This document shows positions 19,778 through 42,988 of a DNA stretch of 43,493 nucleotides, one piece after another. The stretch is from Megasphaera paucivorans (GTDB taxonomy: Bacteria > Bacillota > Negativicutes > Veillonellales > Megasphaeraceae), in assembly GCF_900103535.1 (NCBI RefSeq), contig NZ_FNHQ01000022.1, positions 1 to 43,493 of the forward strand, read 5' to 3'. The translations under genes were made by a program, and so were the position numbers. The first letter of the stretch is position 1. Each line of letters begins with the position of its first letter. Below the pieces are notes generated by a model. That model was not told the origin of the DNA and made no database searches. It saw nothing but the letters and a program-made list of their open reading frames with translations.

Positions 19778-19988
19778 AAAAAAACTCCTTCCCGCCATTG
19801 AAAAAAACGAAATTAAGTCTTTTCCTCTTTAATTTATCTTCTCCGATTATACTATCAATAAAAATATTTTTAAATATATTTTATCTAAATTGCTCCATTA
19901 CTAACCCTCTAAAAAAAACTCACATTCACATACAGTACAATTCTAGTTGTTATTTTATATAAAATATAATCAAAATAATAGCAAAAAA
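19778..19988. other. AT-rich intergenic region upstream of the SDR gene
   Basis: No gene is visible. On the minus strand a TATAAT at 19846-19851, with a poor TTTAAA-like -35 17 bases away, is the best promoter candidate for the SDR operon. A TTGTAC element near 19935-19940 resembles half of the kdgK operator core. Confidence 0.4.
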
Positions 19989-20032
19989 CTCCCCACCATA
20001 AATTAGACCGAAAATCAGTCTGTTGTGGGGAG
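19989..20032 (-). terminator. Intrinsic terminator of the ECF transporter operon
   Basis: CTCCCCAC and GTGGGGAG arms, with inner AGAC/GTCT pairing, are followed on the minus strand by TTTTTTG. It lies about 50 bases past the stop of the last ECF gene. Confidence 0.9.
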
Positions 20033-20082: not shown

Positions 20083-21552
20083 TTACTGCAGTTTTTGAAG
20101 CTCTTGCACAGCTAGTTCCGTTGAAAGCCAAGCTTTTCCGATATTATATCCCATCTCTTCCAATTTTAACTGACACGCAAAAACATGAGGAATTGCCGAA
20201 ACATAAATATGCGTATCATACATATAACGTAATACGGTTTCCACACCACTATCACACAAAATACGGCCATGATCAATAAGTACCATTCGATTAGCGTAAG
20301 GAAGTGCCGCTTCCAAAGTATGTTCTACAATCACAACCGTATGACCATACCGTGTATTGAGATTATGAATCAGTTGATAGAAAGCATTCGTTCCTTCTGG
20401 ATCCAATGCTGAAGTCGGCTCGTCAAATACCAAAATATCTGGATTAGTAGCTAAAACACCTGCAATTACCAGACGTTGCCGCTGACCGCCGGAAAGTTTG
20501 CTCAATTCTCGCGTACGGTATTCTGTAAGACCCACTTTATCCAACGCTGAGGTAATTGCCTCTTTGATTATTTTCGGATTCACTCCTTGATTTTCCAAGC
20601 TAAACGCGATTTCTTCTTCTACGGTCATAGCTACAAGCTGGCTATCATAATCATCAAGCATCATCCCTACATGACATGCTAAATCAGAAATTGTCGTCTG
20701 CGTTGTTGCCTTTCCGTCTACATATACCATGCCCTTCATAACCCCGCCAAAATAATGCGGAATCGCTCCCGTCAATGTCATGCATAAAGAACTTTTGCCA
20801 CTGCCGCTTTCTCCGGCAATAACCAAAAAATCACCTTTATGAATATTAAGATTAATATCATTCAAAACGGGTGTCTTCTGCTTATTATATATGTAAGATA
20901 TATGTTCAAGCGAAATGAGTCCTTCCCGTACTGGTTTTAAATCAAATATGCTATGATCAGAAATTACCATCTGTTCTTCCAAGGAATCCAACACTCCGCG
21001 GGATACAAAAAGCCGCAAAGCTGGATAATACATAACCGGCGTAACAATTCCATTAAGCAAACCAATAATACCTACCAGCGGAAGCATCCCGGCAGTATAT
21101 ACAACCATGGGCAAGTCCATGACAAACTTCAAAATGGTAACAAATACGCCTCCACTGAGACACGTTGAAACAATTCCCGTTATTACAGGAAGCAACGAAT
21201 GTCCCCTAAAACGAAGAAACGAAAAATAATGAACTATAAAAGCACAGGATAGCGCTCCAATAGGTTCACTGATAAGATTCCCATATGGGAATCCCGATTT
21301 AGAGGTAAGAACATTCACAAGTGCAGCTACCAGACCAATTCCCAACGCCTGTCTGTAAGTAGGCTTTGTCAAACAAATTGCTACGCAATACGTAGCAATT
21401 GTCCAGTTAGGAGTAATTCCTGCCACACTCGGAGAGACAAGATGGAGAATGGTGCCGATTGCCAGCATCAATGTACTAATTGTAATCCAACGAAATTGCC
21501 CACCTTGCCTATGATGAAATTCCAATTTAGAAATATCATGTATTTGTATCAT
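20083..21552 (-). CDS. ECF transporter: S component fused to ATPase (copy 2, intact Walker B)
   Basis: This 489-residue two-domain protein combines parts that are normally separate. Residues about 22-185 hold six hydrophobic segments resembling TrpP-type S components (AIGTILHLVSPS, then a FPYGNLISEP loop). From about 211 there is a full ECF-type ABC ATPase: Walker A GESGSGKSS at 247-255, Q-loop region DDYDSQL, signature LSGGQ at 353-357, Walker B ILVFDEPTSAL at 373-383 and switch H411. It should bind the substrate, probably tryptophan, and hydrolyse ATP. The ATG has AAGGAG 7 bases upstream, 11 bases after ecfT. It is clearly paralogous to the protein encoded at 23059-24555. Confidence 0.85.
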   Translation of the reverse strand: MIQIHDISKLEFHHRQGGQFRWITISTLMLAIGTILHLVSPSVAGITPNWTIATYCVAICLTKPTYRQALGIGLVAALVNVLTSKSGFPYGNLISEPIGALSCAFIVHYFSFLRFRGHSLLPVITGIVSTCLSGGVFVTILKFVMDLPMVVYTAGMLPLVGIIGLLNGIVTPVMYYPALRLFVSRGVLDSLEEQMVISDHSIFDLKPVREGLISLEHISYIYNKQKTPVLNDINLNIHKGDFLVIAGESGSGKSSLCMTLTGAIPHYFGGVMKGMVYVDGKATTQTTISDLACHVGMMLDDYDSQLVAMTVEEEIAFSLENQGVNPKIIKEAITSALDKVGLTEYRTRELSKLSGGQRQRLVIAGVLATNPDILVFDEPTSALDPEGTNAFYQLIHNLNTRYGHTVVIVEHTLEAALPYANRMVLIDHGRILCDSGVETVLRYMYDTHIYVSAIPHVFACQLKLEEMGYNIGKAWLSTELAVQELQKLQ

Positions 21553-21563
21553 CCGTCGGCTCC

Positions 21564-22256
21564 TTATACGATACCATGAATACGCAAATATATAACAACG
21601 GCACTGATAAGTATCATACCCCCTATTAGGGCATAATCCATCACGTTAGGTTGTACATTGCTCATAAAACTGTGACGCTGCTGACTGCCAAAACCACGCA
21701 ATTCTAAACTAAGAGCCATTGTTTCTGACCTACTTAATGATTTCAACATAAGCGGCTGGATAACACTCATATAATTAATCATGCGTTTAAACACATTTCC
21801 CTTCACAGAAAGTCCCCTGCAAGCTTGTGCTTCTTGCACAGCTTTACTTTCAGCAATAAAATCAGGAACAAAGCGAAGTGCTGCTGTAAACATGAACGCA
21901 TATTCATAAGGAACCTTAATTTGTGTAACCATCGCCGCTGTCAAATCTTGTAAACGCGTTGTAGTCAAAAGAATAATAAAAACAACGGTCATCGCCATCA
22001 TGCGCAATCCCGTAACATAAGCCGATTCCACGGAACCACCGCCTAAAAGCTGGACAATCCCAAGAAAAACAGCAAAAACAGCAAGGCTGCCTACGGCTTT
22101 GCTGTTACGCTGTAAATTACCGCAAACCGTAAGTATCAACAATTCCGCAACAACCAAAATAATCAGTGGTATCGTAGTATGCATGACAAGTGCCCAAAAA
22201 GAAAATGCAAATGTCGCGATTAATTTTGTTACAGGTACCATGTTTTTAATCATCAT
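21564..22256 (-). CDS. ecfT: ECF transporter transmembrane coupling protein EcfT
   Basis: EcfT is the membrane subunit that couples the ATPases to the substrate-binding S component. The 230-residue sequence has hydrophobic helices at the N-terminus, a long cytoplasmic region and a final C-terminal helix. Both coupling motifs are visible: AQACRGL and LELRGFG, the Ala/Leu-x-Arg-Gly elements that dock into the ATPase grooves. Its start overlaps the stop of the EcfA gene as ATGA. It is the only EcfT in the operon, so it probably serves both S-ATPase fusions. Confidence 0.9.
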   Translation of the reverse strand: MMIKNMVPVTKLIATFAFSFWALVMHTTIPLIILVVAELLILTVCGNLQRNSKAVGSLAVFAVFLGIVQLLGGGSVESAYVTGLRMMAMTVVFIILLTTTRLQDLTAAMVTQIKVPYEYAFMFTAALRFVPDFIAESKAVQEAQACRGLSVKGNVFKRMINYMSVIQPLMLKSLSRSETMALSLELRGFGSQQRHSFMSNVQPNVMDYALIGGMILISAVVIYLRIHGIV

Positions 22257-23065
22257 GCATTCCCCCTCAATCTTTTTACCATTTCATCTTGAAATTCAGC
22301 CATGGATTTGCAATATTTCATTCCCGCAACAGCCATTGATAGGGTAACAGACTGCGGCCTAGTCAATCCTAAATCCACTAATTCATCGCATTCGGTAAAT
22401 AATTTCTGGGGAGTCCCATCAAAATATTTTGTTTGATGCCCCATAACAATAACACGTTTACAATATTGCGCCAAAATATCCATATCATGTGTAATAAGTA
22501 ATATTGTCAATCCGGCGTCATTAAGTTTTGTAAGCAACCGCATAAGTTTTGTTTTTTCAGCACTATCCTGACCGCTGGTTGGTTCATCAAGAATCAGATA
22601 TTGCGTATGCATAGCTAATGCTGAAGCGATTGCTACTCTTTGTTTTTCGCCGCGGTTCAAATTCGGCGGATATGCATCCGCCAGTTTCTGCAGTCCGGTT
22701 GCCTCCATAGCCTCTGCAACGGCCTCTTCTGTCTCCCTTTTTGTCATCCCTAATTGCTGTGGTCCGTAGGCAATTTCCTGTGCTACGGTAGGACGAAACA
22801 TTTGCCGTTCCGGGCGTTGAAACACATAGCCAATAAACCGGCTGCGTACAGAAGCATCTTGTTTAATAATACTTTTCCCATCTTTTAGAATATCTCCCTG
22901 CACAGGTTTTTCTAATCCCATCAGCAGCCGTGTAACTGTTGTTTTTCCACAACCGTTGCGCCCGCCCAATCCAATAAATTCACCTTCACCAATAATTAAG
23001 TTTACCTCTTTCAATATAGGAACACCATTTCCATAGTCGAAATTAACATTTTTCATTTCTAACAT
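22253..23065 (-). CDS. ECF transporter ATPase (stand-alone EcfA)
   Basis: This 270-residue cytoplasmic ABC ATPase pairs with the ATPase half of a fusion protein. Walker A is GRNGCGKTT at 35-43, Q-loop Q83, Walker B YLILDEPTSG with D160 and E161, and H-loop LLITHDMD. The signature at 136-140 reads LNRGE instead of LSGGQ. The C-terminal extension beyond the core fits the EcfA dimerisation domain. The ATG at 23065 has GGAGG 9 bases upstream and overlaps the preceding gene by 7 bases. EcfT follows with an ATGA overlap, so the genes are translationally coupled. Confidence 0.9.
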   Translation of the reverse strand: MLEMKNVNFDYGNGVPILKEVNLIIGEGEFIGLGGRNGCGKTTVTRLLMGLEKPVQGDILKDGKSIIKQDASVRSRFIGYVFQRPERQMFRPTVAQEIAYGPQQLGMTKRETEEAVAEAMEATGLQKLADAYPPNLNRGEKQRVAIASALAMHTQYLILDEPTSGQDSAEKTKLMRLLTKLNDAGLTILLITHDMDILAQYCKRVIVMGHQTKYFDGTPQKLFTECDELVDLGLTRPQSVTLSMAVAGMKYCKSMAEFQDEMVKRLRGNA

Positions 23066-24555
23066 GCTACTCTACCTCCATTTGGGCAACACTGCTTTAA
23101 ACTATTTATAGCGATATCCAAATCAAGCCATGCTATATCTCCCATATTACAGCCCGCTTTCTCAAGAGTCATCTGACAAGCAAATACTTGTGGAACCGCC
23201 GTTGCATATATATTGTTTTCATACATAAAACGCAGCGTTGTCGCTACATCCCCATCACAGGCAATACGTCCCTTCTGTATAAGAATCAACCGGTTAGCAT
23301 ACGGCAAAACAGCCTCCAATGTATGTTCTACCACAATTATAGTATGTTTGTATTTAACATTCAAATCATGCAATAATTGATAAAAATCACGTGTTCCTTC
23401 CGGATCAAGTGCAGATGTCGGCTGATCAAATACCAAAATATCCGGATTCGCAGCCAAAACCCCCGCAATAACCAAACGCTGTCTTTGTCCTCCCGATAGT
23501 TTACTGATTTCACGTTTTCGATACTCTGTAAGTTTGACCTTTGTTAACGCATGTTCAATGGCTTCTTCTATCTTATTCGGATCAATCCCCTGGTTCTGCA
23601 GACTAAATGCGATTTCTTCCTCTACCGTCATTGCTACCAACTGACTATCATAATCATCCAGCATCATACCTACATGACAAGCAAGTTCCGCAATACTGAT
23701 TTGCGTTGTCGCTTTATTATCTACAAAGGCCATTCCTTTCATAACACCTCCGAAATAATGAGGAATAGCGCCGGACATCGCCATACATAAAGCACTTTTT
23801 CCGCTTCCGCTTTCACCTGTAATAACAAGGAAATCGCCTTGATGAATAGAAAGACTAATATTATCTAATGCCGGTTTACTTTTCTTATTATAGGTATAAG
23901 ATAAATGTTCCATAGAAATAAGCCCTTCACGCGATGGATTTAACTTAAATCGGCTATGATCGGATACTTCCATTTCTTCTGATTTGACATCAATGATTCC
24001 TCTCATGGCAAACAATTTTTCTGCCGGATAATATAGTACCGGTGTTGTCACTCCGTTAATAAGACCGATAATACATACTGCCGGGAGCATCACATTAAAA
24101 AAAACTGAATCTGGAATATTTAACGCTAATTTAAAAGTTGTTAAAAATATGGTTCCAGAAATGATGGTACAGATCAACCCCGTAAAAGCGGGAAGAACCG
24201 TATGCCCTTTCCACTTAATGATATCCAGGTGTTTTACTGCAAAGCAACAAAGTAATGCCGCAACCGGCTCACTAATAAAATCTCCGTAGGGAAATGCCGC
24301 CTTAGACGTAAGAACTCCCACAAAGGCATATACCATGCCAATACCGAAGGATTGCTTATATGTAGGCTTAGTCAGATGAATTGCGATACAATACATCGCA
24401 ATAGCCCAATTAGGAGTAAAGCCCGCCACACTCGGAGATACCAGACGAAGAATAGTTGCAATCGCCAAAAGCAATGTACTCACCGTAATCCATCTATATT
24501 GACCGCCTTGTCTGTGATGAAATTCTAATATTGAAATATCTGCAATACGTTCCAT
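23059..24555 (-). CDS. ECF transporter: S component fused to ATPase (copy 1, Walker B E to Q)
   Basis: This 498-residue paralogue of the protein at 20083-21552 aligns without gaps over almost its full length. A TrpP-like six-helix S component occupies about 22-185 and an ECF ATPase follows from about 211. Walker A is GESGSGKSA at 247-255, signature LSGGQ at 353-357 and the switch histidine is present. The Walker B motif reads ILVFDQPTSAL: the catalytic glutamate is Q378 (codon CAG). It is the first gene after the T-box leader, with a GGGGG SD 8 bases before the ATG. Substrate is inferred as tryptophan from the T-box and the TrpP-like fold. Confidence 0.85.
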   Translation of the reverse strand: MERIADISILEFHHRQGGQYRWITVSTLLLAIATILRLVSPSVAGFTPNWAIAMYCIAIHLTKPTYKQSFGIGMVYAFVGVLTSKAAFPYGDFISEPVAALLCCFAVKHLDIIKWKGHTVLPAFTGLICTIISGTIFLTTFKLALNIPDSVFFNVMLPAVCIIGLINGVTTPVLYYPAEKLFAMRGIIDVKSEEMEVSDHSRFKLNPSREGLISMEHLSYTYNKKSKPALDNISLSIHQGDFLVITGESGSGKSALCMAMSGAIPHYFGGVMKGMAFVDNKATTQISIAELACHVGMMLDDYDSQLVAMTVEEEIAFSLQNQGIDPNKIEEAIEHALTKVKLTEYRKREISKLSGGQRQRLVIAGVLAANPDILVFDQPTSALDPEGTRDFYQLLHDLNVKYKHTIIVVEHTLEAVLPYANRLILIQKGRIACDGDVATTLRFMYENNIYATAVPQVFACQMTLEKAGCNMGDIAWLDLDIAINSLKQCCPNGGRVAC

Positions 24556-24872
24556 TATCTCAGCCCCCTAATTATTTATACAAAAAAGCCCTTCATCCTT
24601 TGCTTATTAAGCAAGGGACGAAAGGCTTATAATTCTTCCGCGGTGCCACCCCAATTGACTATGATTAGTCCGGCTTTACATGTACGGCCTAGGCGATACA
24701 CGTTTCTTTGATAGCGGTGGAAATACACCGTCGTGCCCTACTTGTTCTCGTTCAGGCCGCATCTCCCGAATCCATTCCATTCATTGACCTGTACCGAACT
24801 CTCACTATCATCGGCTCGCTGCAACTGTCGTTCTGTATGTACTCGTTTCGTTCATCGATTTATTTTAAGTTA
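24556..24872 (-). ncRNA. T-box leader (tRNA-sensing riboswitch), specifier probably UGG (Trp)
   Basis: The minus strand carries the conserved T-box GGGGTGGCACCGCG (about 24638-24653). Upstream is a stem I apical region (AGCGAGCCGA ... TTCGGTACA) and an AAGTAGG element with a stem III hairpin (CGGTG/CACCG). The specifier region reads GAATGGAATGGATTCGGGAG, so GAA followed by UGG occurs twice (UGG at 24777-24779 or 24772-24774); other registers would give GGA or AUG. The terminator at 24586-24628 is the regulated stop. Uncharged tRNA-Trp would allow expression of the ECF genes. Confidence 0.88.
24586..24628 (-). terminator. Regulated terminator of the T-box leader
   Basis: Arms AAGCCTTTCGTCCCTTGCTT and AAGCAAAGGATGAAGGGCTT form a long stem that is followed on the minus strand by TTTTTTG. 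It lies directly after the T-box sequence, as expected for the alternative to the antiterminator. Confidence 0.92.
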
Positions 24873-24878
24873 CTTGTA

Positions 24879-24906
24879 ATTATACCTGATTTTTAAAGTA
24901 TGTCAA
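24879..24906 (-). promoter_or_regulatory. Consensus promoter of the T-box/ECF operon
   Basis: On the minus strand TTGACA (24901-24906), 16 bases, then TATAAT (24879-24884). Both boxes match consensus perfectly. It lies between brnQ and the T-box leader. Confidence 0.9.
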
Positions 24907-26397: not shown

Positions 26398-26423
26398 CAC
26401 TTATAAGACAACTACAGATGCTT

Positions 26424-26513
26424 TTATCCAGAGAGGCGGAGGGACTGGCCCTATGAAGCCCGGCAACCGATAATACGGTGCCAATTCCTGCGGAAGAAAT
26501 TCCGAGAGATAAA
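26424..26513 (+). ncRNA. SAM-I riboswitch (S-box)
   Basis: The conserved core is visible: TTATCCAGAGAGGCGGAGGGA, ATGAAGCCCGGCAACC, GGTGCCAATTCC and the closing GAGAGATAA that pairs with the 5' TTATC. It lies upstream of metQ, so SAM should repress methionine uptake. Confidence 0.95.
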
Positions 26514-26528
26514 GATACGTTTTACATG

Positions 26529-26607: not shown

Positions 26608-27441
26608 ATGAAACAATTTAAAAAACTCACTTTTCTAGCTGCCACAACTCTTTTGTCACTAGCTCTCCTTGCCAGTGGCTGCGGCAGCAGCACTCCCGAG
26701 AACAACAAAGACGGTTCCAAAAGTGTCACCATCACCGTTGGTGCTACACCGGTACCTCACAGTGAAATTCTCAATGAAATCAAACCATTACTTGCAAAAG
26801 AAGGAGTAAATCTAAAAATCGTTGAATTCACGGACTATGTAAAACCCAACTTGGCTCTTGCCGACAAAGAACTAGATGCTAACTTTTTTCAACATAAACC
26901 ATACTTGGACAAATTCGATGCCGAACATGGTCTAAAACTTCAAGAAGCCTGCAAAGTTCATTTGGAACCGATGGGTGTATATTCAAAGAAAATCACGGAT
27001 TTAAAGAACCTTCCCAACAATGCCAAAGTAGCTATTCCAAATGATCCAACCAATGGCGGCCGGGCATTGCTCATACTTCAATCAGCCGGCCTTATTACGT
27101 TAAAAGACAAAGATAACATTACTTCAACAGTACAAGATATTGCAAATAACCCAAAACAGCTTCAGTTTGTTGAGCTAGACGCTGCACAAATTCCCCGTTC
27201 CTTAAGTGATGTAGATATTGCCGTCATTAATACAAACTTCGCCATGGAAGCAAATCTTAATCCTTTAAAAGATGCATTATATCTGGAATCGAAAGATTCT
27301 CCATATGCCAACATTCTCGTGGTCCGTGAAGGCGACATCAATCGTCCCGAAATTCAAAAACTGATAAAGGCACTGCAATCACCGGAAGTCAAAAAATTCA
27401 TTGAAGAAAAATATAAAGGAGCTATTCTTCCGAGTTTCTAA
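26608..27441 (+). CDS. metQ: Methionine ABC transporter substrate-binding lipoprotein
   Basis: This 277-residue NlpA/MetQ-family lipoprotein captures methionine for import. A basic start and hydrophobic stretch lead to the lipobox LASGC, with lipidated Cys at residue 25. The mature part has the family's VGATPVPHSEIL, FFQHKPYLD, PNDPTNGGRALL and INTNFA segments. The ATG follows CTAGGAGGA by 7 bases. The SAM-I riboswitch upstream supports methionine as the ligand. No metN or metI lies next to it, so the ATPase and permease must be encoded elsewhere. Confidence 0.93.
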   Translation: MKQFKKLTFLAATTLLSLALLASGCGSSTPENNKDGSKSVTITVGATPVPHSEILNEIKPLLAKEGVNLKIVEFTDYVKPNLALADKELDANFFQHKPYLDKFDAEHGLKLQEACKVHLEPMGVYSKKITDLKNLPNNAKVAIPNDPTNGGRALLILQSAGLITLKDKDNITSTVQDIANNPKQLQFVELDAAQIPRSLSDVDIAVINTNFAMEANLNPLKDALYLESKDSPYANILVVREGDINRPEIQKLIKALQSPEVKKFIEEKYKGAILPSF

Positions 27442-34693: not shown

Positions 34694-35593
34694 TTATTTA
34701 CATTGTCCTACAATTTCACCAATATTAACCAGTCCTTTACCTTGACCATACTGTTCTAATTCTTTGGTAATATCGACGATAGCCGTCGGGCTGCAAAGTG
34801 TGGCCGTGCCAACAGATACCGCACTAGCTCCAGCAAGCATAAATTCTGCAGCATCACGACCACTCATAATGCCGCCCATGCCAATAACCGGAATATGCAC
34901 GGCCTGCGCTGCCTGATAAACCATACGTACCGCCACCGGTTTAACCGCAGGGCCAGATAAGCCGCCAAAACGATTCCCCATGAATGGCTGCCATGTATCA
35001 ACATCAATAGCCATGCCAAGAAGTGTATTAATCAGTGATATACCATCAGCCCCCGCGGCTTCAACCGCTACGGCTACCGATACAATATCGGTAACATTCG
35101 GCGTCAATTTGACAATTACCGGCTTGTGCGTATTTTTCTTCACTATTCTTGTAACTTGTGCCGCACTTACTGGGTCTACTCCAAAAGCTAAACAGCCATT
35201 TTTAACATTAGGGCAGGAAATATTAACTTCCAAAAAATCAATTCCCTCGATATCGAGAAGAGCCGCCATTTTTCCGTATTCCTCAATATCACTTCCAGAT
35301 ATATTGGCCATAATAGGAACATCGTATGTGGATAATTGTGGCAATATATCATTAATAAAAGATTCCACTCCTGGATTTTCCAGTCCAATGCAGTTCAACA
35401 TGCCAGAAGGAGTTTCGCAAATACGTCTTCCATCATTACCGCGCCGCGGTTTTAAGGACAATCCTTTTACGGAAATAGCTCCAACTGTATTTAAATCCAA
35501 ATAGTTAGCATATTCAAGACCAAATCCGAAGGTTCCCGATGCCGCGATAACCGGACTTTTCATTGTTACCCCGCACAAAACTGTTTCAAGCAC
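34694..35593 (-). CDS. pyrD: Dihydroorotate dehydrogenase, class 1B catalytic subunit
   Basis: PyrDB oxidises dihydroorotate to orotate and passes electrons to the PyrK subunit. I choose the GTG at 35593 (299 residues, beginning M(V)LETVLCGVTMKSP), with GGAGG 9 bases upstream; it overlaps the pyrK stop by 8 bases. The longer frame to 35674 would lie inside pyrK. FMN-site and catalytic features are present: ASGTFGFG, NISCPNVKNG with the class 1B active-site Cys, and the C-terminal GMGGI and GASAVSVGTA phosphate-binding loops. It is the last gene of the pyr operon. Confidence 0.95.
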   Translation of the reverse strand: MLETVLCGVTMKSPVIAASGTFGFGLEYANYLDLNTVGAISVKGLSLKPRRGNDGRRICETPSGMLNCIGLENPGVESFINDILPQLSTYDVPIMANISGSDIEEYGKMAALLDIEGIDFLEVNISCPNVKNGCLAFGVDPVSAAQVTRIVKKNTHKPVIVKLTPNVTDIVSVAVAVEAAGADGISLINTLLGMAIDVDTWQPFMGNRFGGLSGPAVKPVAVRMVYQAAQAVHIPVIGMGGIMSGRDAAEFMLAGASAVSVGTATLCSPTAIVDITKELEQYGQGKGLVNIGEIVGQCK

Positions 35594-36353
35594 GAAAGAA
35601 CACCTCCTCTGCATCAAAAACCGGACCATCATGACAGACTTTATAGCGTTTGCCGCCCCGACCATCAATAACACAGCCTAAACAACCGCCTGTACCACAT
35701 CCCATATAAGCTTCAAGCGATACTTCACAAGAAATACGGCAAGCTTTGGCAATTTCCGCGACCTTCTTCACCATCGGAGTCGGACCGCAGGTATAGACTA
35801 TAGCTGCTCCAGTAGATTGAATAAGCTCTGCCAAAACATCTGCAGCAACCCCTTTTTTCCCAGCTGATCCATCATCCGTAGTTGTCACTATTTTCTGCAC
35901 ATCAAACATATCTGTCCAAAACAATTCGGAAGCTGTTTTACCGCCAATAATCACTGTCACATTTTCTTTTTTAAGTTTTGATGCCAAGAAAAGCAGCGGA
36001 GCCACTCCGACACCTCCGCCAATCAGAATAACCGGCTTATCGGAAGGGGTAAAACCTCTTCCCAAAGGCCCCAGACAGTCGATAACTTGCCCTGCCGATA
36101 GTTGACTCATACATGTTGTTCCTTCACCAGCCAAACGGTATATAATAGTAATCGTACCCTTTTCGATATCAGTCTCCGCTAACGAAATAGGCCGCCGCAA
36201 TATATGTGATGAATCCTGCATCAGTCCAAAATGTACAAACGTACCGGGCACTGCCGCTTTGGCAATGTCCGGTGCATTTACTACCATTTTATATACAGAC
36301 TGTGCAACGGGTTCATTATAAATAATAGTCCCAATTTGCTTTATGCCTGTCAT
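35586..36353 (-). CDS. pyrK: Dihydroorotate dehydrogenase electron transfer subunit
   Basis: PyrK carries FAD and a [2Fe-2S] cluster and links PyrDB to NAD+. The 255-residue protein has the ferredoxin-reductase fold: RRPIS (FAD), GGGVGVAPLLFL (NAD), CGPTPM and the cluster cysteines in MGCGTGGCLGC with a later VCHDGPVF. Its ATG lies 3 bases after the carB stop and shares the GGAGGCATG end of carB as SD. The pyrD start overlaps its last codons. Confidence 0.95.
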   Translation of the reverse strand: MTGIKQIGTIIYNEPVAQSVYKMVVNAPDIAKAAVPGTFVHFGLMQDSSHILRRPISLAETDIEKGTITIIYRLAGEGTTCMSQLSAGQVIDCLGPLGRGFTPSDKPVILIGGGVGVAPLLFLASKLKKENVTVIIGGKTASELFWTDMFDVQKIVTTTDDGSAGKKGVAADVLAELIQSTGAAIVYTCGPTPMVKKVAEIAKACRISCEVSLEAYMGCGTGGCLGCVIDGRGGKRYKVCHDGPVFDAEEVFFRA

Positions 36354-42834: not shown

Positions 42835-42884
42835 CAGTTATCCTCCTTCAAAAAATTGAACTCAGAACTGGCACCAACAAAAAA

Positions 42885-42908
42885 GACCCCTGCCGAAAGG
42901 CAAAGGTC
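42885..42908 (-). terminator. PyrR-controlled terminator before pyrB
   Basis: GACC/GGTC and inner TTTGCC/GGCAGG form the stem, with a TTTC loop and TTTTTTG following on the minus strand. It lies downstream of the PyrR-binding loop and about 50 bases before pyrB. Confidence 0.92.
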
Positions 42909-42940
42909 ATAAAGAACATACAAAAAACATGTCCCTTCTT

Positions 42941-42954
42941 AGCCTCTCTGGACT
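42941..42954 (-). promoter_or_regulatory. PyrR-binding loop of the pyr leader
   Basis: The minus strand reads AGTCCAGAGAGGCT, a full match to the PyrR RNA-binding consensus ARUCCNGNGAGGYU. PyrR with UMP or UTP would bind it and favour the terminator. No pyrR gene is in the window. Confidence 0.93.
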
Positions 42955-42988
42955 ATATTAAAGGTACCATCTTCTATCCAAAAACAAA

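Follow-up and report, generated by a model that had tools for sequence, protein, structure and literature searches.

The stretch of DNA considered here (the window) comprises 43,493 nucleotides of contig NZ_FNHQ01000022.1 of Megasphaera paucivorans (Negativicutes, Veillonellales) and carries on its minus strand an operon for an energy-coupling factor (ECF) transporter in which the S component and one of the ATPases occur in a single polypeptide. The operon is tightly packed and reads T-box leader, fusion 1, EcfA2, EcfT, fusion 2, with overlaps of 7 nt between fusion 1 and EcfA2 and of 4 nt between EcfA2 and EcfT; a branched-chain amino acid permease gene lies upstream of the leader and the four-gene run. 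This order and its coordinates had been proposed from the letters and their open reading frames only (the sequence-only reading) and are borne out by the gene calls and by the match to the T-box family RF00230. The features are:

24611-24864 (-): T-box leader RNA RF00230, full length (cmscan 100.9 bits, E 2.9e-21)
24772-24774 (-): specifier codon UGG (Trp), placed by the Rfam alignment and homologous leaders
23059-24555 (-): fusion 1, 498 aa; TrpP-type S component, linker and A1-type ECF ATPase with a natural Walker B Glu-to-Gln change (Q378)
24004-24555 (-): six-helix S domain of fusion 1 (residues 1-184), from PF17099 and the S-component fold
23920-24003 (-): linker of fusion 1 (residues 185-212), from alignment and predicted model; low predicted local distance difference test score (pLDDT) at 192-196
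23059-23919 (-): A1 ATPase domain of fusion 1; LSGGQ intact, Asp at the Q-loop position, catalytic E378Q
22253-23065 (-): EcfA2-type ATPase, 270 aa; Walker A/B, Q-loop and H-loop canonical, signature LNRGE in place of LSGGQ
21564-22256 (-): EcfT (CbiQ family), 230 aa; PF02361, two Arg motifs (R147, R187)
20083-21552 (-): fusion 2, 489 aa; TrpP-type S component, linker and A1-type ATPase; catalytic Glu kept, Q-loop Gln lost
21001-21552, 20917-21000 and 20083-20916 (-): S domain, linker and ATPase of fusion 2, respectively
19982-20032 (-): probable intrinsic terminator of the operon, read in the sequence as a CTCCCCAC/GTGGGGAG hairpin followed by a minus-strand T run

The two fusions are 65% identical. 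Their N-termini (residues 22-176) match the Pfam family TrpP (PF17099) at 46.9 and 37.2 bits, over the curated cut-off of 27.2 bits; 41 of the 41 related S domains scanned match this profile as well. ECF S components carry in helix 1 a small-residue motif, AxxxA, that docks on EcfT; in the Veillonellales fusions this site reads TxxxA (T27 and A31 nearly invariant), that is, small residues but not AxxxA. No homologous solved structure was found for the S domain by sequence search. A model of the domain built with AlphaFold2 (pLDDT 80.8) was compared with solved structures, and ECF S or M components fill the first 21 places (Z 16.5 to 10.5), headed by PanT (Z 16.5) and then RibU, ThiT, FolT and BioY entries. 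Beneath the ECF proteins stand MreD (Z 9.7), whose fold is known to be related to that of S components (PMC11109136), and Lnt (Z 8.5), the first unrelated enzyme. The C-termini are full ECF ATPases (TIGR04520 at 2.6e-63 and 1.6e-66), and the claim that an N-terminal TrpP-like six-helix S component and a complete ECF ATPase share one chain therefore stands on PF17099, TIGR04520 and the fold matches, the Pfam search proposed with it having returned TrpP.

In the predicted model the last S helix (helix 6) ends near residue 184 and, after a flexible stretch, the first ATPase strand starts from 213. A linker is thus present as originally read, although its length is corrected from about 25 to about 28 residues. 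The alignment shows an invariant linker histidine, His200, within an SDH(S) motif. The unfused S protein of locus L165 (uncultured Selenomonadales) ends in VSDHSSKL, resembling the SDHS linker motif of the fused proteins, and this end may, judging from the likeness, have been the source of the linker.

The leader passes the RF00230 gathering score of 93. It contains a second GAA-UGG 5 nt upstream of the specifier, and only the 3' copy aligns with the leaders of relatives. Across the Negativicutes, GAA-UGG occurs at the same place in 65 of 65 distinct T-box leaders preceding the module, fused or unfused, while the flanks vary; the four listed leaders that lack GAA-UGG represent a different, opposite-strand T-box. 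The Rfam alignment and the 65 distinct leaders uphold the UGG specifier of the sequence-only reading. Among the 28 T-box matches of the window's genome, UGG leaders are also found on the trp operon (trpE, G, D, C, B and A by family, with a probable trpF between C and B) and on trpS; tandem T-box pairs were seen in this genome at G000:C65:28858-29497 and G000:C17:406-987. A trpB match over the family cut-off occurs in 48 of the 61 genomes of the order. All 13 genomes that have none keep the fusion, and the single genome without a TrpP match has trpB, a pattern that supports the link to tryptophan, though it lies near a ceiling. Together with the TrpP family assignment and the UGG T-boxes of the module, the trp operon and trpS, these results support tryptophan as the probable transported substrate, as first suggested, by the indirect route of a T-box regulon.

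The fused form is widespread. TrpP is matched in 60 of the 61 genomes of the order, the best match of each lying in an open frame of 490-566 aa, and the genera concerned are Megasphaera, Anaeroglobus, Colibacter, Veillonella, Dialister, Allisonella and Negativicoccus; outside the order this form occurs in one genome of another family (G067). The order-wide frames rule out a fusion confined to the window's genus; the fusion is a trait of the whole order rather than a local peculiarity, and only the second copy is particular to that genus. An assembly artefact, named beforehand as a finding that would overturn the proposal, is likewise ruled out, since the fusion is order-wide and the double arrangement F1-A2-T-F2 recurs in an independent assembly, Megasphaera sp. 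UW_MP_MEG2_1 (L130/L058), with an S domain 99% identical. A second fused form of about 425 aa was observed in three further families of Negativicutes (L079-L085, e.g., L082:3276-4553); here S and ATPase are only around ten residues apart, and the ATPase seemingly lacks its usual first strand. Among 398 phylum genomes sampled, no TrpP-ATPase fusion was found outside the class, the frames there being of about 170-290 aa, save for a few weak partial matches.

More widely in the Negativicutes (e.g., Pelosinus, Lucifera butyrica, and Anaerospora hongkongensis) the module consists of separate S-A1-A2-T genes, often with a 4-nt overlap and with the same UGG T-box, so that dedication predates fusion. 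Judging from these operons, S and A1 genes that lay side by side, and in many cases overlapped, in an operon that was already dedicated gave rise to the fusion; parsimony on the trees asks for two changes, and a single origin is not rejected (approximately unbiased test, p 0.287). The suggestion that tethering makes the transporter a dedicated one holds as to the dedicated module, but not as to its cause, since unfused dedicated operons exist. The module operon is order-wide, and the window's genome has only two EcfT proteins, this one and that of the general EcfA1-EcfA2-EcfT module at G000:C29. S, A and T are thus encoded together for one S component, as in group I ECF transporters, with two S variants sharing the module in the window's genus. 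Other arrangements were noted as well: at L093:3382-5821 (G129) the two ATPases seem to form one 575-aa chain, with EcfT and an unfused TrpP-like S gene coming after it, and at L182 (Negativicutes bacterium SKW2) a 475-aa frame matching EcfT comes right after S and A1 with no separate A2, the frame probably being, from its position and match, an A2-EcfT fusion.

The ATP sites of ABC (ATP-binding cassette) proteins are composite, with the Walker, Q and H motifs contributed by one subunit and the signature by its partner, and in EcfT two conserved Arg motifs contact the ATPases. Both are recognizable in the module: the ATPases match TIGR04520/04521 and have EcfA/CbiO folds, so that a pair of EcfA-type ATPases is present, and the EcfT motifs are conserved (R147 in 81 of 81 relatives; R187 as Arg in 77 and Lys in 4 of 81). 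A2 keeps the Walker A Lys, the Q-loop Gln, the Walker B Asp, the Glu and the H-loop His, each in 81/81, and has a degenerate signature in all 81, the third position never being Gly. A1 has LSGGQ intact in 85/85 (fused 65/65) and lacks the Q-loop Gln in all 65 fused proteins, against its presence in 9 of 20 unfused ones; the catalytic Glu has been lost twice, in fusion 1 and its ortholog (Gln) and in Dialister micraerophilus (DSP, Ser), and the H-loop His is lost in five A1 proteins. The rows of this comparison are related by descent, and weight is placed on the independent lineages rather than on Fisher tests. All the A1 and A2 losses fall on one composite site, whereas the other is fully canonical. 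The module thus departs from the two canonical ATP sites typical of characterized ECF transporters and displays the pattern of one degenerate site, with loss of the A2 signature and of A1 motifs and the second site intact; the general EcfA pair of the window's genome, taken as a control, is canonical at every motif. From its motifs, the A1 half that carries S appears to have lost its own ATP hydrolysis. Neither this asymmetry nor the E-to-Q change of fusion 1 figures in the sequence-only reading. In D. micraerophilus the fusion without the catalytic Glu is the only one, there is no trpB match, and the UGG T-box is intact.

The presence of two fusions is restricted to the window's genus. Relatives of the same family have the order A2-T-fusion and the rest of the order fusion-A2-T; in the tree, fusion 1 falls near the base of the fusions of the family and fusion 2 among those of Megasphaera. 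The simplest history, with moderate support (84-88), would be a duplication that gave F1-A2-T-F2 in the family ancestor, the first copy being lost elsewhere afterward. Between two species the ratio of nonsynonymous to synonymous substitution rates (dN/dS) is 0.049 for fusion 1, 0.062 for fusion 2, 0.069 for A2 and 0.043 for T, so that both fusions are under purifying selection. The value for fusion 1 rules out a decaying pseudogene, and that of its S domain (0.016) indicates strong purifying selection. Deviations at near-invariant positions number 11/128 in fusion 1 and 3/128 in fusion 2.

On these grounds the operon is likely to encode an ECF importer (type III ABC) of the dedicated kind, with tryptophan as its most probable substrate, a tethered S component and one hydrolytic site. 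The computed basis consists of the architecture, the fold, the conservation of T-box and specifier, the motif asymmetry and the purifying selection; from it we infer tryptophan as the ligand, the pairing of A1 with A2, hydrolysis at a single site and retention of S. Build-up of uncharged tRNA-Trp would switch the operon on through the T-box. The working complex, by analogy with solved ECF transporters, would consist of one fusion chain, one A2 and one EcfT. S would bind tryptophan outside, topple on EcfT and release its ligand inside, the cycle being reset by ATP; S would then re-dock on its own motor without exchange, and with so short an S-A1 linker ATP-driven expulsion would move it at most a short way from the motor. 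ATP would be hydrolyzed at the site formed by the Walker, Q and H motifs of A2 and the LSGGQ of A1, while the site formed by the A1 motifs and the degenerate A2 signature would mainly bind nucleotide; hydrolysis at the A2 site only would explain how fusion 1 can carry Gln and stay conserved. In the window's genus one A2-EcfT platform would be contested by the two fusion chains, each as an intact S-ATPase unit. The 1:1 ratio of S to ATPase foreseen by the sequence-only reading is not retained: the predicted fusion:A2:T ratio of 1:1:1 amounts to one S per two ATPases, the canonical 1:1:1:1 of ECF transporters, and the tether would therefore alter exchange and dissociation, not stoichiometry. A bolder version, possible but held only tentatively, has an importer that never releases S and hydrolyzes ATP at a single site, the S-bearing ATPase serving mainly for structure and nucleotide binding; exchange would have shifted to a higher level in the window's genus, where two S-ATPase chains, one with the natural E-to-Q change, would alternate on the shared A2-EcfT and import two related ligands.

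Several observations weigh against this picture of a tethered, single-site tryptophan importer. At most Veillonella loci (L150-L163, L178, L180) the fused transporter is kept and no T-box is recognized by pattern, hence regulation by a T-box is not universal. The TrpP scores of the module (37-50 bits) are far below the 140-212 bits of most matches outside the Negativicutes, which marks the S domain as a divergent TrpP branch that could by now bind another indole or a tryptophan precursor instead. As 9 of the 20 unfused A1 proteins keep the Q-loop Gln, the asymmetry in these rests on the A2 signature alone. The A1-A2 pairing is taken over from known ECF transporters, though it gains support from the motif losses, which share one composite site only if A1 pairs with A2. 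In the Lactobacillus delbrueckii transporters a change of either catalytic Glu abolished activity (PMC10368641), so that single-site work is not general among ECF transporters.

Of the alternatives, the one that survives best holds the fusion to be mechanically neutral, merging overlapping genes and guaranteeing their co-expression, with S behaving no differently from that of other group I ECF transporters and the cycle unchanged. It has an appreciable, if minor, chance of being correct: the frequent 4-nt overlap of unfused S and A1 genes is an easy start for a fusion, group I S components may not go far anyway (PMC10368641), and 28 residues make a long linker if extended. The invariance of His200 in the SDH motif, the retention of the fusion in 60 of 61 genomes and the tolerance of tight coupling seen in the form with about ten residues between S and ATPase argue for more than convenience of expression.

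It is unlikely that the same tethered importer carries indole, anthranilate, kynurenine or another precursor that relieves tryptophan starvation, although the T-box would look alike, as it reports the charging of tRNA-Trp and not the molecule transported. The low-scoring relationship of the S domain to TrpP leaves room for such a ligand, and the differences between fusion 1 and fusion 2 at near-invariant S positions (G33A, H37R, A76Y) suggest two ligands or affinities; however, the TrpP family is named for a tryptophan transporter, and the genomes of the order without trpB keep the module though unable to finish tryptophan from indole or anthranilate by TrpB.

Quite improbable is a fusion 1 that acts as a non-transporting paralog whose E-to-Q ATPase holds A2-EcfT in the ATP-bound state and so regulates or buffers fusion 2. 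Mutants of ECF ATPases with this change do trap the ATP-bound state without transport (PMC10368641), and fusion 1 deviates at more of the near-invariant positions than fusion 2 does (11 vs. 3 of 128), but degeneracy of the site concerned extends to all relatives, strong constraint acts on the S domain of fusion 1, as described above, and D. micraerophilus, where other tryptophan transporters are possible, lost this Glu from its sole fusion, in a genome with no trpB match and with the UGG T-box intact. A dimer of two fusion chains forming a two-S transporter, with EcfA2 serving elsewhere, would agree with the two fusion genes of the operon and the nearly complete catalytic set of fusion 2, yet it is very unlikely given that almost all relatives have one fusion plus A2 and that the A1 and A2 losses coincide on one composite site only when A1 pairs with A2.

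Elsewhere in the window, a SAM (S-adenosylmethionine) riboswitch (26421-26515, plus strand, 86 bits) precedes an NlpA/MetQ-type lipoprotein gene (26608-27441), so that a methionine-uptake locus adjoins the tryptophan locus, and a PyrR binding site (42876-42968, minus strand, 57.1 bits) stands at the head of a series of minus-strand genes, among them that for dihydroorotate dehydrogenase (34694-35674).

Present models of ECF transporters assume that S is expelled in an ATP-driven step and that there are two catalytic Glu residues, both of them needed in the one system so tested. The module represents a natural family with S tethered to the motor and one degenerate ATP site. The family extends across an order common in human oral and gut communities (Veillonella, Dialister, Megasphaera), and it makes testable whether S must leave for transport and whether two hydrolytic sites are needed. 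It also offers a tryptophan-uptake annotation for proteins that would generically be called no more than ABC ATPases, and a prediction of which Veillonellales need tryptophan from outside.

Among known systems, the nearest by family is TrpP (YhaG), the ECF S component for tryptophan in Bacillus, which shares with the module a PF17099 match above the cut-off, the six-helix S fold and the link to tRNA-Trp. In the genomes sampled from the rest of the phylum, TrpP is encoded as a separate S protein (about 170-290 aa), whereas that of the module is fused to an ATPase, has its own A2 and EcfT and scores far lower. No paper on a TrpP-ATPase fusion was found in the open-access literature searched, in line with the earlier statement that no characterized S-ATPase fusion was known; that statement needs amending to the extent that a 2023 paper noted, at the level of sequence, natural fusions of EetB, an S-like protein that binds flavin adenine dinucleotide, to ECF-A or ECF-T domains (PMC9973259). 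Like the module, EetB-ECF-A joins an S-like domain and an ECF ATPase in one chain in several genomes, but it belongs to another S family and to flavin export, and the passages on these fusions describe neither a T-box nor an asymmetric ATPase (PMC9973259).

Group I ECF transporters (BioMNY, CbiMNQO) resemble the module in that one S, one EcfT and the ATPases are encoded together for one substrate; there S is a separate chain and here S and A1 form one, and group I S components have been proposed not to go far (PMC10368641). Group II transporters (L. delbrueckii ECF-FolT2 and ECF-CbrT) have the same subunit types and are described by a model of toppling and ATP-driven expulsion, in which S is pushed out into the membrane on ATP binding; an E-to-Q change at either catalytic Glu abolishes their activity (PMC10368641). 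In group II, S exchanges on a shared module, whereas here it is tethered and one site bears natural losses of Gln, Glu or His; no degenerate site in an ECF transporter was reported in the open-access papers searched. Heterodimers of type IV ABC transporters have one degenerate ATP site. RbsA and NupO of Bacillus subtilis are also ABC transporters of this kind (PMC11466899). As in all of these, one composite site of the module has lost its signature and the other is canonical.

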